From: Halomonas campaniensis
GTDB taxonomy: Bacteria > Pseudomonadota > Gammaproteobacteria > Pseudomonadales > Halomonadaceae
NCBI RefSeq assembly: GCF_014193375.1
Contig: NZ_JACHZF010000003.1
Location: 124,001-188,000 of the forward strand
Direction: 5' to 3'
DNA length: 64,000 nucleotides
A program made the translations under genes and the position numbers. The notes under the pieces are model-generated. The model saw only the letters and a list, made by a program, of their open reading frames with translations, was not told the DNA's origin and ran no database searches. The number at the start of each line of letters is the position of its first letter. Position 1 is the stretch's first letter. Of this stretch, positions 29,765 through 35,831 are shown piece after piece.

Positions 29765-30088
29765 ATGCCGAAGGTTGCCCAGGCCTGGCTGACCGCCCTG
29801 CTGATGCTCGCCGCCGCCCCTGCGGTGATGGCCGAGTCCGCGACGCCCATGGGGGATCCCGAGCGCGGCGCCGAGCTGGCGCCGCGATGTACCGGCTGTC
29901 ACGGCCCCGAGGGCCGCAGCAACATCACCCGCTACCCCAGCATTGCCGGCATGGAGCCGTCGCTCTTCCGGGAACGCATGGCCGGCCTGAAGGCCGGGGA
30001 AGGCGGCCACCTCCTGAAGAACATGACCCGCGGGCTGAGCGAGCAGGATATCGCCGATCTGGCCGCCCACTTCGCCACCCGGGAGTGA
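29765..30088 (+). CDS. Small periplasmic cytochrome c
   Basis: 107 residues with a Sec signal (cleavage after VMA-ESATP) and one haem site, CTGCH at 42-46, followed by GPEGRSN; a Met in KNMTRG is the likely sixth ligand. It resembles class I c553/c4-half cytochromes. The FNR/DNR promoter and its place between nos and nir loci suggest electron transfer to NirS or NosZ. Confidence 0.85.
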   Translation: MPKVAQAWLTALLMLAAAPAVMAESATPMGDPERGAELAPRCTGCHGPEGRSNITRYPSIAGMEPSLFRERMAGLKAGEGGHLLKNMTRGLSEQDIADLAAHFATRE

Positions 30089-30787: not shown

Positions 30788-31372
30788 TCACTCCTGGCCG
30801 GCGAGCAGCCGGGTGTCCAGGGTCTCCACGCTGAGGTACTCCTCGAAGGTCCAGAGTCGCACGAAGCGGTCGCGCTGCGCCTCGCCCCCGCCCCAGGCGG
30901 TCAGGGCCACGGGGGGCTGTGGCATGCCCTCGGCGAGCTGCTCCAGCCACCACTCGGCCATCTCCTCCTCCCACGGCTGGCCATGCTCGGCGATCAGCCG
31001 CGCCTTCACCGCGGCGTGGTCCTCCACCTCGGGATGGAAGGCCACCACCAGCGCCAGCCGGTCGCTGCCCGCCGGGAAGACATAGCGCAGGTCGGTCTCC
31101 ACCGCCGGAGCGCCGGCCGCCGGAGCGCCGGCCGCCGGATCCCCCCCCAGGCGGCCATCGATGACCAGGTCGCCGTCGTCGGTGCGTGCCTCGGTCACCT
31201 CGGTGACGCCATCCTGCGCCAGGCGCTCACGCACCTGCTCCGGGGACATGCCGAGCTCGGCGCTGCCGTAGCCGGTGATCCCCTCCGCCGCCAGCGCCGT
31301 GCCGGCGACCAGCAGCAGGGCGGGCCAGAGCCCGCCGAGCCACTTGCCGGGATGCCTCATCCCTGCCTTCAT
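30788..31372 (-). CDS. Hypothetical exported protein downstream of nirT-like gene
   Basis: 194 residues with a signal peptide (LWPALLLVAGTALAA). The mature part opens GYGSAELGMSPEQVRERL, a pattern seen in small periplasmic proteins with an LGMS segment, and contains an Ala-Gly-Ala-Pro linker encoded by a 15-bp repeat. It begins 12 bases after the hexahaem cytochrome gene behind AAGGAGG, so it belongs to the nirS-nirT operon. Function unknown; a role in electron transfer to, or assembly of, the nitrite reductase system is a guess from context. Confidence 0.7.
   Translation of the reverse strand: MKAGMRHPGKWLGGLWPALLLVAGTALAAEGITGYGSAELGMSPEQVRERLAQDGVTEVTEARTDDGDLVIDGRLGGDPAAGAPAAGAPAVETDLRYVFPAGSDRLALVVAFHPEVEDHAAVKARLIAEHGQPWEEEMAEWWLEQLAEGMPQPPVALTAWGGGEAQRDRFVRLWTFEEYLSVETLDTRLLAGQE
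31104..31139. repeat. 15-bp tandem repeat (2.4 copies)
   Basis: GCCGGAGCGCCGGCC repeats at 31104 and 31119 plus a partial unit at 31134, in frame, encoding an AAGAP linker in the exported protein. Confidence 0.9.
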
Positions 31373-31384
31373 GAATCCTCCTTA

Positions 31385-33052
31385 TCAGCGCTCGATGCGC
31401 GTGGCGTTGATCTCGACCATCTCCTCGTCCACCTCGTCGGCGCCGAACATCAGCCCGAACTGCCAGGAGACGTGGTGGAAGCGCGAGGCCGCGTGGTCAT
31501 CGTGCAGCGCGAAGTTGACGTTGTACTTGCCGTCCAGGGCGAGCGGCTTGTCGCCGGGCGCGCCGGTGCGCAGGGCGCGGGTCAGGTAGGCGGTCCACAC
31601 CCCGTCCGCCTCGCTGGCGCTGAACACCACCGCCTCGCTGTCGTCGAAGTGGCGCTCCTCGAGGATGTAGCCGGACTCGGTGCGCTCGCTGCCGCTCTTG
31701 TAGCGCGCCATGTCCAGGTAGACCCCGCCGCCGAACAGCTCGTCGATCTCCTCGCGCTCCTTGAGCTTGTCCCAGCCACCGCGGGCGGCGCCGCGACGAC
31801 CGCGCACCTCGACCTCGGTGCGGCTCTCGGTGAGGTACTTGGTCACGCCGTTGCCGCTGATCAGGTCGAGACGCTCGGCCAGCTCGCTCTCGGCCAGGGC
31901 CTCCGCCTCGGGGGCGTCGGGCATGTAGGCGGAGTCGTGGTGGCAGCTGGCCCAGCAGCCGCCGCGGTCGGCCATGTCGACGCGATCGTCGGCGAAGCTC
32001 ACGGTCAGCTTGATCGCGTTCTCGGGGTCCATCATGCCGCCGTCGACAAAGGGCAGCGGCGCGTGCTCGCCGGCCTCCCACTGGAAGCGCATGTAGAGGT
32101 AGTCGTCATCGAAGGCGGCCTGCACGGCCATCGGCACGTGGCCGCGCTTGTCACCCAGGTCATAGGTCTCGATCTTCTCGGCACTGGTGGCCAGGGCGCC
32201 GATATCGGCCTCCTCGCCCTGGTGGCACCAGACGCAGCGGTCGCCGAAGCTGAAGGCGCGGCCGCCGCCGTGCTCACTGCCGTCCTGGATCCACTCGATG
32301 GAGGCCTGGCCCGGCAGGAACAGGGTCACGTCCAGCGCCGGGACGGCGTCCCAGGCCAGGCCGGAGGCGATGTCGCCCTCGGCGGCCACCGCCTCGCCCA
32401 GCTCCTCGGCCTCCAGCGGCAGCTCGGGCTCGCCGCGATCCTGGTCGGCCTCGGTGTCATGGGCGAAGCGGGCGGCCCAGACCGGCGACTCGTCCCAGGC
32501 CTCGGGGAGCTCGTGGGCGATGCCCTGGTGGCACTCGATGCAGGTCTGGCCCTGCTCGAACCCCCGGGCATGCTCGCGGGCGGCGCGGGCCGGCTGCTGC
32601 TCCAGGTCCATGGCGGACCAGTCGTGGCAGTTGCGGCACTCGCGGGAGTCGGTGCGCAGCATGGAGCGCCAGACGTTCTCGGCCAGCTGCAGCCGCTTGC
32701 CGTCGAACTTCTCCTTGGTGTCCACGGTGCCCAGCATCCAGTGCCACACCTCGCGGCTGGCCTGGATCTTGCGGACCATCTTCGGGCCCCAGGCGTCGGG
32801 CACGTGGCAATCGGAGCACTCGGCGCCCACCCCGGTGGGGTTCCGGTAGTGGGGGCGGTCCTGGTACTCCTCGTAGACCCAGCTCATCTCGTGACAGGCC
32901 GAGCTGCAGAACTTCATGTTGTTGGTGGCCTCCATCACCGTGTTGAAGCCCCCCCAGAAGATGATCCCGGCCACGAAGAAGATCACGGCGCCCCCCAGGG
33001 TGGCTCCCATGATCGTGATCTTGCGCCAGCCGCGCAGGCGTTCCCTAAGCAT
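31385..33052 (-). CDS. Hexahaem cytochrome c: NapC/NirT domain fused to an ethylbenzene-dehydrogenase-like haem domain
   Basis: 555 residues. One N-terminal membrane anchor (about 13-34) precedes a NapC/NirT tetrahaem domain with haem sites at Cys49-Cys53-His54 (CSSACH, a CX3CH), 79-83 (CSDCH), 139-143 (CRNCH) and 171-175 (CIECH). From about residue 230 a beta-rich domain resembling the haem-binding subunit of ethylbenzene/DMSO-type dehydrogenases follows, with haem sites CVWCH (273-277) and CWASCH (366-371, also CX3CH). NirT-type proteins oxidise quinol for periplasmic nitrite reductases; nirS-nirT order is known from Pseudomonas stutzeri. Classical NirT is about 200 residues, so the fusion is more than twice the usual size. 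GGGAGA precedes the start. Confidence 0.85.
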   Translation of the reverse strand: MLRERLRGWRKITIMGATLGGAVIFFVAGIIFWGGFNTVMEATNNMKFCSSACHEMSWVYEEYQDRPHYRNPTGVGAECSDCHVPDAWGPKMVRKIQASREVWHWMLGTVDTKEKFDGKRLQLAENVWRSMLRTDSRECRNCHDWSAMDLEQQPARAAREHARGFEQGQTCIECHQGIAHELPEAWDESPVWAARFAHDTEADQDRGEPELPLEAEELGEAVAAEGDIASGLAWDAVPALDVTLFLPGQASIEWIQDGSEHGGGRAFSFGDRCVWCHQGEEADIGALATSAEKIETYDLGDKRGHVPMAVQAAFDDDYLYMRFQWEAGEHAPLPFVDGGMMDPENAIKLTVSFADDRVDMADRGGCWASCHHDSAYMPDAPEAEALAESELAERLDLISGNGVTKYLTESRTEVEVRGRRGAARGGWDKLKEREEIDELFGGGVYLDMARYKSGSERTESGYILEERHFDDSEAVVFSASEADGVWTAYLTRALRTGAPGDKPLALDGKYNVNFALHDDHAASRFHHVSWQFGLMFGADEVDEEMVEINATRIER

Positions 33053-33208: not shown

Positions 33209-34822
33209 TCAGCCGACGTGGTTCTTGCGGTTGTAGACGTTGAACTTGCCGGTCGGCGTGTTCAGGTTCTCGACCCGGGCCTTCTCCTCCAGGGTCTTGT
33301 CGTCGAAGATCACGATGGCGCCGTCATCCTGGTGACCGCGACCGCGGGCCCAGATGGAGACCCACACCTCGGAGCCGGTCTGGTCGTACTCCATGTGCAC
33401 CGCCACGGCGTCATGCTCGACGGGACGGTCGGCGACGTGGATCGGGGTCAGCTCGCGGGTCTCCTTGTTCATGACCATGACCCACTGGTTGACGTCGGCC
33501 TCGGGGTGCATGGCCTGGTCGATCCAGACGTTGTCGGACTCCGGGTGGGTACGCACGAACAGGCCGGGGCCGTCGGTCTCGACGCTGCCGCAGATCTCCC
33601 AGGCCTGGTCCGGATAGTTCTCCGGGTCGTTGCCCCAGAAGGTCATGCGGCCCTCGCCGAGGTGGGTGGTGCCGGCCACCGGGCCGCACTCGGGGTCGAC
33701 CCAGTTGGCGCCCGGGCCCGGGTGCGGGATCTGCCCGGTCTCCAGCATGCCCACCCGCTTGCGGGTCTCGGTGTCGACGAACACCATCTTGTTGCTGTAG
33801 TTGGCGGCGATCTGGAAGTAGCGCCCGGAGGGATCGAAGAATCCGTCGTGCAGGTACTCGGCGGTCTCCATCTGCTCGATGCGCAGGTTCTCGATATCGC
33901 TGTAATCGACCTGCCAGACCTGGCCGGTCTCCTTGACGTTGACCAGGAAGCTCGGCGCGTTGGGGGTGTTGTAGAGCGCCGCGACGCGGGCCTCATGGAC
34001 GTAGTTGCCCTCGGTGTCGTAGCCGCGGGTGGAGACGACCTTCAGCGGCTCCATGGTCTCGGCGTCGGCGATCACGAAGTGGGGCGGCCAGTAGGCGCCG
34101 CCGATGACGTACTTGTCTTTCCACTCGCCATAGTGGGAGACGGCCACGTCGCGGGCGTCGATGCCGATGAACACCTCGGCGGTCACCTGGGGCGGGTCCA
34201 TCCACAGGTCGATCTTGGAGAGGCGGCCGTCGCGGCCCTGGACGTACCAGAAGCGGCCATCGGAGCTCTCCTTGGCCACGTGCACGGCATAGCCGGTCTC
34301 GGCCTCGGTGACCAGCTCCTTGGTGTCGCCGTCGATGATCCCCATGGCGCCCCGGTCACGCAGGATGGTGACCATGAAGTTTTCCCAGTTGCGGTCATGC
34401 TGGGGCTCGGTGGGCCACTCCTCCTGGGGGACGACGATCTTCCAGGTCTCGCGGATGTCGGCCAGGGACATCTCCGGCGGCTCTTCCGGGGTCTGCTGGA
34501 TGTACTTGGCGATCAGCTCGATCTCGTCCTCGTCGAGGATGCCGTCGAAGTTGTTCATGCCACCCTCGGTGCCGAAGGTGATGATGCTCTCCAGGCGGCG
34601 CTGGCCCATGTCGACGGTGGTCTCGGGCAGCAGGTTGGGGCCGGTGGCCCCCTTGCGCAGGGTGCCGTGGCAGCCGGCGCAGCGGGAGAAGTAGATCTGC
34701 CCCGCGCGATCCAGCTCCTCGGCCGACATCTCCGGCGCCGCCGCCTGCACGCCGCCCGCCATCATGGCGGCCAGCGGGAAGCTGAAGGCGAAGATCCCCT
34801 TGCTCAATGCTCTCTTGGTCAT
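33209..34822 (-). CDS. nirS: Cytochrome cd1 nitrite reductase
   Basis: 537 residues. After a signal peptide (cleavage near VQA-AAPE) comes a cytochrome c domain with CAGCH at 48-52, then an eight-bladed haem d1 propeller from about residue 140, with the motifs GGAYWPPHFVI, HDGFFDPSGRY and HPGPGANWVDPECGPV. It reduces nitrite to NO in the periplasm. The ATG at 34822 has GAGG six bases upstream; the open frame continues 5' only by chance. Two FNR/DNR boxes lie upstream. Confidence 0.97.
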   Translation of the reverse strand: MTKRALSKGIFAFSFPLAAMMAGGVQAAAPEMSAEELDRAGQIYFSRCAGCHGTLRKGATGPNLLPETTVDMGQRRLESIITFGTEGGMNNFDGILDEDEIELIAKYIQQTPEEPPEMSLADIRETWKIVVPQEEWPTEPQHDRNWENFMVTILRDRGAMGIIDGDTKELVTEAETGYAVHVAKESSDGRFWYVQGRDGRLSKIDLWMDPPQVTAEVFIGIDARDVAVSHYGEWKDKYVIGGAYWPPHFVIADAETMEPLKVVSTRGYDTEGNYVHEARVAALYNTPNAPSFLVNVKETGQVWQVDYSDIENLRIEQMETAEYLHDGFFDPSGRYFQIAANYSNKMVFVDTETRKRVGMLETGQIPHPGPGANWVDPECGPVAGTTHLGEGRMTFWGNDPENYPDQAWEICGSVETDGPGLFVRTHPESDNVWIDQAMHPEADVNQWVMVMNKETRELTPIHVADRPVEHDAVAVHMEYDQTGSEVWVSIWARGRGHQDDGAIVIFDDKTLEEKARVENLNTPTGKFNVYNRKNHVG

Positions 34823-34929
34823 AACGTGCCTCGCTTGATTTCCCCTTGGGGTGTGCCTGGCGGGTGCCCGGCATGACCTTTCCAACCCCGGTCGGTCATC
34901 ACCAGCCGTCACCCTCCACCTGCCGGTAA

Positions 34930-35057: not shown

Positions 35058-35831
35058 TCAGCGGGCCATGGGCCGGGACGGCAGGTCGGCAGGCAGGTCG
35101 CTGCCGTTGAGGCGAGGACAGGCCGGCATCGGCTGCATCGGGTCGCCGGCGCCGGACAGGCGCCTCAGGGCCGCGAGGTCATCGATGCACACGGCGTTGC
35201 GCTCGCAGCTGACCCCGAGCCCCTTGAGTCGCGCCATGGCCCGGGAGAAGCTCTCCGGCTTCATGCCCAGGCGGCCGGCGATCAGCATCTTGTCGCAGGG
35301 CAGGCAGACCTTGGCGCGGGCGGCGTCGTCCGGGCAGAGCGAGACCAGGAAGGCCGCCAGCCGCTGATGGGTCGACTGGTTGGTGAGCTGGTCGAGCTGC
35401 CGCACCATTCCCCTGAGCATCGCGGTGAGGTTGGCCAGCAGGTTGAGCGTCAGGCCGTGGTGCTGGCGCAGGGTCTCCAGGAAGTGCTCCGCCGGGAAGA
35501 CCAGCAGCCGGGCCTCCTCGGCGGTGGCGGCGTTCACCGGGAAGCCCAGCCGGTCGAACATCGCCGCCTCGGCGAAGGACTCGCCGCGGGTGAAGAGCCC
35601 CACCAGGCACTCGCTGCCCTGGGGATTGTCGCGGTAGAGCTTCACCCAGCCGTCCAGTACCACGTAGAAGCGATCCGCGGGCTCCCCCTCGCTGAACAGC
35701 CGGGTGCCGCGCGGACAGCGGCGCTCGTGGGCGCCGCCGGTGAGAAGCGCCAGGGTGTCATCGCCGAGACCGGCGAACAGCGGCACCTGGCGCACCGTAC
35801 GCAGCGTCTCGCGACTCAAGCGAACCGTCAT
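35058..35831 (-). CDS. dnr: Crp/Fnr-family regulator, DNR-type
   Basis: 257 residues: cyclic-nucleotide-like sensor domain (about 10-130), long dimer helix and a C-terminal helix-turn-helix (about 180-215, IAGRLGMKPESFSRAMARL). It lacks the N-terminal Cys cluster of FNR/Anr, as expected for DNR, which senses NO through haem and activates nir, nor and nos genes. GGAGG lies five bases before the ATG at 35831; the frame is open further upstream only by chance. Lying directly upstream of nirS, it is the obvious reader of the FNR-like boxes, although an FNR/Anr protein encoded elsewhere binds the same motif. Confidence 0.88.
   Translation of the reverse strand: MTVRLSRETLRTVRQVPLFAGLGDDTLALLTGGAHERRCPRGTRLFSEGEPADRFYVVLDGWVKLYRDNPQGSECLVGLFTRGESFAEAAMFDRLGFPVNAATAEEARLLVFPAEHFLETLRQHHGLTLNLLANLTAMLRGMVRQLDQLTNQSTHQRLAAFLVSLCPDDAARAKVCLPCDKMLIAGRLGMKPESFSRAMARLKGLGVSCERNAVCIDDLAALRRLSGAGDPMQPMPACPRLNGSDLPADLPSRPMAR

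Follow-up and report, generated by a model that had tools for sequence, protein, structure and literature searches.

The window, a 64,000-nucleotide stretch of DNA, carries a gene on its reverse strand, nirTB, whose reading frame occupies exactly the span given in Table 1 from ATG to stop. Two modules lie in this one frame, behind nirS. The NapC/NirT module matches PF03264 (Cytochrom_NNT; Pfam) with an E-value of 1.7e-66 and 223.7 bits, against a gathering score of 24.1, and the C-terminal domain matches PF09459 (EB_dh; Pfam) with an E-value of 2e-24 and 87.3 bits, against a cut-off of 33.3. A preliminary description of this locus, made from the sequence, had proposed a fusion of a NapC/NirT tetrahaem module with a second haem domain behind nirS, and the presence of both matches in a single 555-aa frame bears this out. 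Papers with a PMC number are cited here from excerpts of their text.

Table 1 Features of the nirTB locus and its neighbours in the window.
Feature	Position	Strand	Details
nirTB, fused NirT (membrane tetrahaem quinol dehydrogenase) and probable NirB (dihaem EB_dh-fold cytochrome)	31385..33052	(-)	555 aa
NapC/NirT module, residues 22-184	32501..32989	(-)	PF03264
Haem 1, F-C49-SSA-C53-H54-E-M56	32885..32911	(-)	CX3CHxM, beside the membrane anchor
Haem 2 motif	32804..32818	(-)	C79SDCH
Haem 3 motif	32624..32638	(-)	C139RNCH
Haem 4 motif	32528..32542	(-)	C171IECH
Acidic linker, residues 185-232	32357..32500	(-)	
Probable NirB domain, residues 233-529	31466..32356	(-)	PF09459; fold like EbdC (2ivf_C) and NxrC (7b04_C)
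NirB haem site 1	32222..32236	(-)	C273VWCH (CX2CH)
NirB haem site 2, very probable	31940..31957	(-)	C366WASCH (CX3CH)
nirS, cytochrome cd1 nitrite reductase	33209..34822	(-)	PF02239, E 3.5e-113; directly upstream of nirTB
Crp/Fnr-type regulator upstream of nirS	35058..35825	(-)	
194-aa protein	30788..31372	(-)	12 bases behind nirTB

Six haem motifs lie in frame (CSSACH, CSDCH, CRNCH, CIECH, CVWCH and CWASCH), and the four of the NirT part, at residues 49, 79, 139 and 171, come after one N-terminal helix. All six sites counted in the preliminary description, including the two with CX3CH spacing (Cys49/Cys53 and Cys366/Cys370), are present and conserved. In the structural model, a helix is predicted for residues 2-43, which by eye appears to be a membrane helix, and the tetrahaem part was modelled poorly (pLDDT block means of 33-47 over residues 41-90). 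The NirT part gave a profile match to NrfH (E 5e-5), and a single-sequence phmmer search against solved structures returned no match for the whole NirTB or for its C-terminal part. NirTB scored below the NCBIfam cut-offs of TIGR02161 (napC_nirT; 235.3 versus 310.6 bits) and TIGR02162 (TorC pentahaem; 202.2 versus 478.2 bits). Like NirTB, the TorC-type pentahaem cytochromes join a NapC-like tetrahaem module to a C-terminal haem domain, but that domain is of another kind.

The matches to nirS and nirTB are separated by 160 bases on the same strand; the nirS queries started at 34834, four codons ahead of the likely ATG. The 194-aa protein encoded behind nirTB, which has a weak PepSY_2 match (E 0.03) and, as read from its sequence, a likely signal peptide, occurs near nirTB in 28 of the 29 genus loci L188-L216 with about 50-76% conservation, the single miss (L216) being cut by a contig end. 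It was not found in L014 and L015, which belong to other genera. On the opposite strand near nirTB, positions 29765-30088 (+) encode a small class I cytochrome c of 107 aa with one CTGCH, a possible soluble partner. In the excerpted text of PMC8014003, Halomonas has two NirS clades, of which NirS1, which may be horizontally acquired, has dnr1 as a neighbour, precedes the nos operon and is far from other nir genes. The window has this NirS1 layout, with the Crp/Fnr-type regulator at the place of dnr1, then nirS, nirTB and nos-like frames, which we read as putative nosR and nosZ. The contig has two more cd1-like frames, one of them with an internal stop, at distances of about 39 and 33 kb from nirS.

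Among 90 genomes of the genus, 30 encode a NirS1-type NirS with 84-100% identity to that of the window, and in all 30 nirTB follows 160-349 bases behind nirS on the same strand. A 31st nirTB-bearing genome, G814, has a contig end 509 bases from the gene. In 28 of the 90 genomes the only NirS is at 44-47% identity (NirS2), and nirTB is present in none of these 28; G825 and G839 have both NirS types together with nirTB. NirS as such therefore does not need nirTB, since the NirS2 genomes do without it. Within the genus, the fused architecture is conserved, adjoins nirS and co-occurs with NirS1 only. In Stutzerimonas, too, nirTB goes with one NirS clade, 1b, according to the available text of PMC13086519.

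The identity of the second domain was addressed by fold comparison, which was clearer than the weak profile matches of this part (NxrC, E 7e-4; EbdC, E 0.025). The C-terminal model aligned with EbdC (2ivf_C) at Z 13.7 over 186 residues with an rmsd of 4.0, and with NxrC (7b04_C) at Z 12.7 over 181 residues with an rmsd of 3.5, the next rows having Z of at most 9.4. The anticipated similarity to haem-binding dehydrogenase subunits was thus found, and the term 'ethylbenzene-dehydrogenase-like', which the preliminary description applied to this half, holds for the fold, but the near relatives are NirB. Judged from these relatives, the domain is best read as NirB, most likely the counterpart of a dihaem cytochrome whose gene adjoins nirT in Pseudomonas stutzeri. 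Locus L217 (genome G056) has nirS, nirT and nirB as separate neighbouring genes in that order: nirT is a 221-aa frame with CISCH, CPDCH, CRNCH and CINCH, haem 1 being CX2CH, and nirB is a 336-aa frame with CAACH and CWASCH, the same kind of motifs as in the NirB part of the window. After nirB comes a 144-aa frame with one CAACH, presumably nirM. The order nirSTBM in P. stutzeri is credited to Juengst et al. 1991 in the excerpts of PMC13086519, and NirB is termed a dihaem cytochrome there and in those of PMC8954225. The same two modules stand in the same order behind nirS in P. stutzeri (Stutzerimonas) and in the window, but in the former NirT and NirB come from two genes and NirB is its own protein. 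The earlier statement that classical NirT is a lone tetrahaem protein had missed this partner gene, which is encoded beside nirT in classical denitrifiers. The gene Psest_0817 of P. stutzeri RCH2, whose locus number is two away from that of nirS (Psest_0815), bears the name 'Ethylbenzene dehydrogenase' (PMC5554334, excerpted), and its name and position fit a NirB carrying the EB_dh Pfam name.

The NirB domains, cut out by HMM, were aligned in 162 rows, including the window (154 distinct sequences). Site 1 is CX2CH wherever it is aligned, with Cys273, Cys276 and His277 in 160 of 160 rows, and site 2 is kept as well (Cys366, His371 and Met377 in 162 of 162, Trp367 and Cys370 in 161 each). The motif spacing (2,3), CX2CH and then CWxxCH, was found in 159 of the 162 rows; the remaining three are L060 and two broken L073 frames. 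By this alignment, the CX3CH of the NirB part is ordinary and constant across the family. It very probably holds the second haem, because NirB is described as dihaem and only one CX2CH is present. The conserved His261, Met377, Lys405, His517 and His526 are candidate axial ligands of the NirB haems.

Fusions in other Proteobacteria were compared at 80 named loci (L053-L132, mostly labelled Gammaproteobacteria), which are the best 80 of 518 relatives, so that counts over them are not frequencies, and at two further loci, L223 and L224. As in the window, the modules share one frame and lie mostly beside nirS; these fusions differ in having CX2CH at haem 1 in readable copies, a longer linker and, in some, a doubled NirB CX3CH site. 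Of the named loci (best 80 of 518), 75 encode NirT and NirB as a single frame, and the other five have no frame with both modules. In 67 of these 75, the end of a NirS-like frame lies at most 600 bases upstream. The eight exceptions comprise six loci that start at a contig end, L115, which overlaps its NirS frame, and L092, which is without an upstream NirS. The survey of nirS neighbours suggested for this architecture thus placed the fusion beside nirS here as well as in every NirS1 genome of the genus. An order-wide search with a NirB query matched 16 of 390 genomes, 9 of the 16 with the fusion.

The same adjacency bears on a different reading of the second domain, as an EbdC-like subunit of b type, docking onto a molybdenum enzyme and linked to NirS by accident. 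EbdC and NxrC, which share the C-terminal fold with NirTB, are Mo-enzyme subunits, EbdC binding a single b haem through Met/Lys ligands (PMC8840923, excerpted), and the fold match to EbdC and the Pfam family name would suit such a role. Two covalent haem motifs, however, characterize nearly all aligned NirB rows, and nirS adjoins in 30 of 30 genus genomes with both matches and 67 of the 75 other fused loci drawn from the best 80 of 518. In addition, NirTB reached only 14.4-16 bits against the cut-off of 169.85 of TIGR03477 (type II DMSO-reductase haem b subunit), a score on which the Mo-enzyme subunit reading was rejected. We therefore disfavour it as highly improbable and retain the assignment to NirB.

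Azospirillum brasilense Sp 7 and Ruegeria sp. AD91A carry plasmids (L223, L224) on which a cytochrome d1 (cd1) gene, nirTB and a plastocyanin/azurin-family gene stand in a row and haem 1 of the fusion is CX2CH. In L015, the gene directly behind that of NirTB (839-1477, (-)) encodes a class I cytochrome c fused to a Cupredoxin domain. Three loci, L042, L045 and L046, have EB_dh/NirB-type frames of 524-640 aa with ten haem motifs, a far longer series of haems on this one fold, adjoining or overlapping a separate NirT-like frame. The window's own genome has in addition, on contig C16 (L002, 604-2010), a 469-aa EB_dh-family frame with no CXnCH motif and a hydrophobic C-terminal stretch, and similar frames occur in several genus genomes.

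The fusions also vary in linker length and in the number of NirB domains. From haem 4 to the first NirB haem there are 93-102 residues in 30 genus copies versus 109-177 (median 145) in 73 other fusions, the genus copies having the shortest linkers. Two NirB CX3CH sites are present in 27 of the 75 fused named loci (from the best 80 of 518). The NirT-NirB-NirB proteins (L056, L057, L071, L101, L119 and others) have 910-946 aa when complete and eight haem motifs; the model of the double-domain form was poor throughout (mean pLDDT 58.5). In the tree, a quick LG+G4 tree without bootstrap in which long branches meet among the unfused rows, the two NirB copies within one protein often pair with each other, and the labels need 11-12 changes, 10-11 of them forced by supported branches. 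The pairing and the changes together suggest repeated doubling or gene conversion. All seven genus rows group in a single clade (SH-aLRT 100) whose stem is long (0.83). Row set A4 consisted of 43 of the 75 fused loci and the window, leaving out 27 copies with a double domain or seven motifs, three that were cut or broken (L066, L073 and L113), L060 (five motifs) and L096 (contig edge); row set A5 consisted of 24 of the 26 complete double-domain copies, leaving out L075 and L118.

A NirT-NirB fusion is already in print, as the excerpts of PMC13086519, citing Li et al. 2018, report a fused NirTB in the denitrifying Halomonas sp. 2A. That protein, likened to the present one by its description, is probably of the same type, and the haem-1 motif is not mentioned in those excerpts. 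NirTB is largely an ordinary protein; its unusual feature is CX3CH at haem 1, found throughout the fusion-bearing genomes of the genus. Haem 1 is CX2CH in all 72 readable copies of the 75 named fusions (from the best 80 of 518 relatives; unreadable in L066, L070 and L113), in 7 of 7 order-level fusions outside the genus and in the two plasmid copies (2 of 5 plasmid records read for motifs), so that none of the 81 readable fusions from outside the genus has CX3CH at this site. The separate NapC/NirT proteins compared also have CX2CH. The pattern FCxxxCHEM, searched as DNA, is present in 31 of the 90 genus genomes, which are the same 31 with a complete or near-complete fusion; a 32nd, G824, has only a 97-residue end of the fusion at a contig edge. 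Of 369 genomes drawn from the class, two contain the pattern, the window's own and G616, which belongs to another family. In G616 (L157), FCAGSCHEM lies in a separate NapC-like frame, a haem-1 CX3CH outside the genus. Among the fusions seen, haem-1 CX3CH is special to the genus of the window; the preliminary description had treated the two CX3CH sites as one oddity, which fits haem 1 but not the family-wide NirB site. A sequencing or frame error at haem 1 was ruled out by the recurrence of the pattern in 31 genomes. Chance haem motifs were likewise ruled out, the NirB motif residues being kept across the aligned rows and the haem-1 motif across the 31 genomes.

A CX3CH at this position might instead be a degenerate site that binds no covalent haem, leaving three c-type haems in the tetrahaem module and needing another entry point for electrons; the confinement of the pattern, among the fusions seen, to the genus of the window, with its long stem branch, would fit such decay. 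However, the two Cys, the His and the Met that follows two positions later are unchanged in 31 of 31 genomes though the codons between them vary; in the copies read, the middle residues are SSA, STA, STS, TGA or SST. The replacement is also length-neutral, FC(X3)CHEM..V.EEY having the same span as FC(X2)CHEM...V.EY. In the excerpts of PMC6295460, moreover, CX3CH beside a membrane segment is listed as an atypical, putative haem-binding motif for ImcH proteins and for two Rhodoferax ferrireducens homologues of CymA, indicating a recurring variant of the haem-1 site. Loss of haem 1 therefore seems quite improbable. Mention of CX3CH at haem 1 of NirT or NirTB was not found in the literature searched, which was mostly in forms other than full text and included PMC10734462, PMC5566968 and PMC4683180.

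Taken together, we propose, with a probability of about 0.8, that nirTB represents NirT and NirB of the P. stutzeri nirSTBM cluster joined in one polypeptide, which would act as a membrane-tethered quinol-to-NirS conduit. NapC-type proteins take electrons from quinol. The N-terminal helix would anchor NirTB in the cytoplasmic membrane, and the NapC-type tetrahaem module would oxidise quinol at haem 1. From there, haems 2-4 would relay the electrons to the haem pair of the tethered NirB domain. The NirB domain would in turn reduce periplasmic NirS, sustaining nitrite turnover and perhaps also activating cd1 reductively. The fusion would remove a diffusion step between NirT and NirB.

The path from quinol through the NirT haems and NirB haems to NirS, which we infer from the genetics of relatives, is well founded. 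In Azospira suillum, the excerpts of PMC5845722 describe pairs of a NapC/NirT tetrahaem protein and a dihaem EbdC-gamma homologue (PcrQ/PcrO and NapC/NapO) as a quinol-to-reductase route: double mutants lacking both tetrahaem proteins (NapC, PcrQ) do not grow anaerobically on nitrate or perchlorate, and neither do double mutants lacking both dihaem proteins (NapO, PcrO). Unlike NirTB, these systems use a separate soluble carrier and serve perchlorate and nitrate reductases, not NirS. In transposon data of RCH2, Psest_0817 behaves nearly as nirS does (control, -0.7 and -0.5; Cr(VI), -2.1 and -2.1), with polar effects possible (PMC5554334, excerpted). Psest_0816, by position nirT of RCH2, has no occurrence in the available text of that paper, so its mutants would be absent from the tables of strong chromate effects given there. 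In strain ZoBell, NirT is needed for nitrite reduction, as cited in the excerpts of PMC13086519. For the direct quinol-to-NirS wire suggested in the preliminary description, these relatives support the direction. Its further suggestion, that the extra domain takes the place of a soluble carrier, is no more than half correct. NirB is tethered, but the window's genome retains a bc1 Rieske match and 24 matches to class I cytochrome c domains, and in some relatives a neighbouring gene encodes an azurin-family protein or a small cytochrome. In the same genome, nirTB is the only PF03264 match, and a profile search gave no PF00127 (azurin-family) match.

The bc1 Rieske gene and the many class I cytochrome domains leave other routes to NirS open. 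NirTB may accordingly serve only to activate NirS1 or to help it mature, delivering the electrons that render as-isolated cd1 active, with the bulk of the turnover electrons travelling via bc1 and a class I cytochrome. Such a limited role would agree with the reductive activation of cd1 by NapC of Paracoccus pantotrophus, as cited in the excerpts of PMC13086519, and with the association of NirTB with a single NirS clade, as in Stutzerimonas clade 1b. By comparison, the equivalent pair of A. suillum carries respiratory flux to the nitrate and perchlorate reductases (PMC5845722, excerpted), and in RCH2 the fitness effects of the NirB-type gene and of nirS are alike, though activation would look the same in those data (PMC5554334, excerpted). 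We consider activation alone a serious possibility, though short of an even chance, and favour the conduit.

The half of the protein first called ethylbenzene-dehydrogenase-like is explained by these results, most likely as NirB tethered to NirT, and in the genomes examined it accompanies a single NirS clade within the genus. With both modules in one polypeptide, NirTB makes it possible to study in a single protein how electrons from quinol arrive at cd1 nitrite reductase or activate it, and the quinol-side CX3CH, found genus-wide, is a natural variant of NapC haem 1. As a tentative extension, which we think rather unlikely as a whole, NirTB might be an extendable tethered wire dedicated to one cd1 clade: NirB would have become joined to NirT, with repeated doublings of NirB in other lineages afterwards, while in this genus the entry haem would have been rebuilt as CX3CHxM as part of a NirS1-NirTB cassette that moved as a unit. 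If this is true, the rebuilt CX3CHxM entry haem may shift the potential or the quinone specificity.
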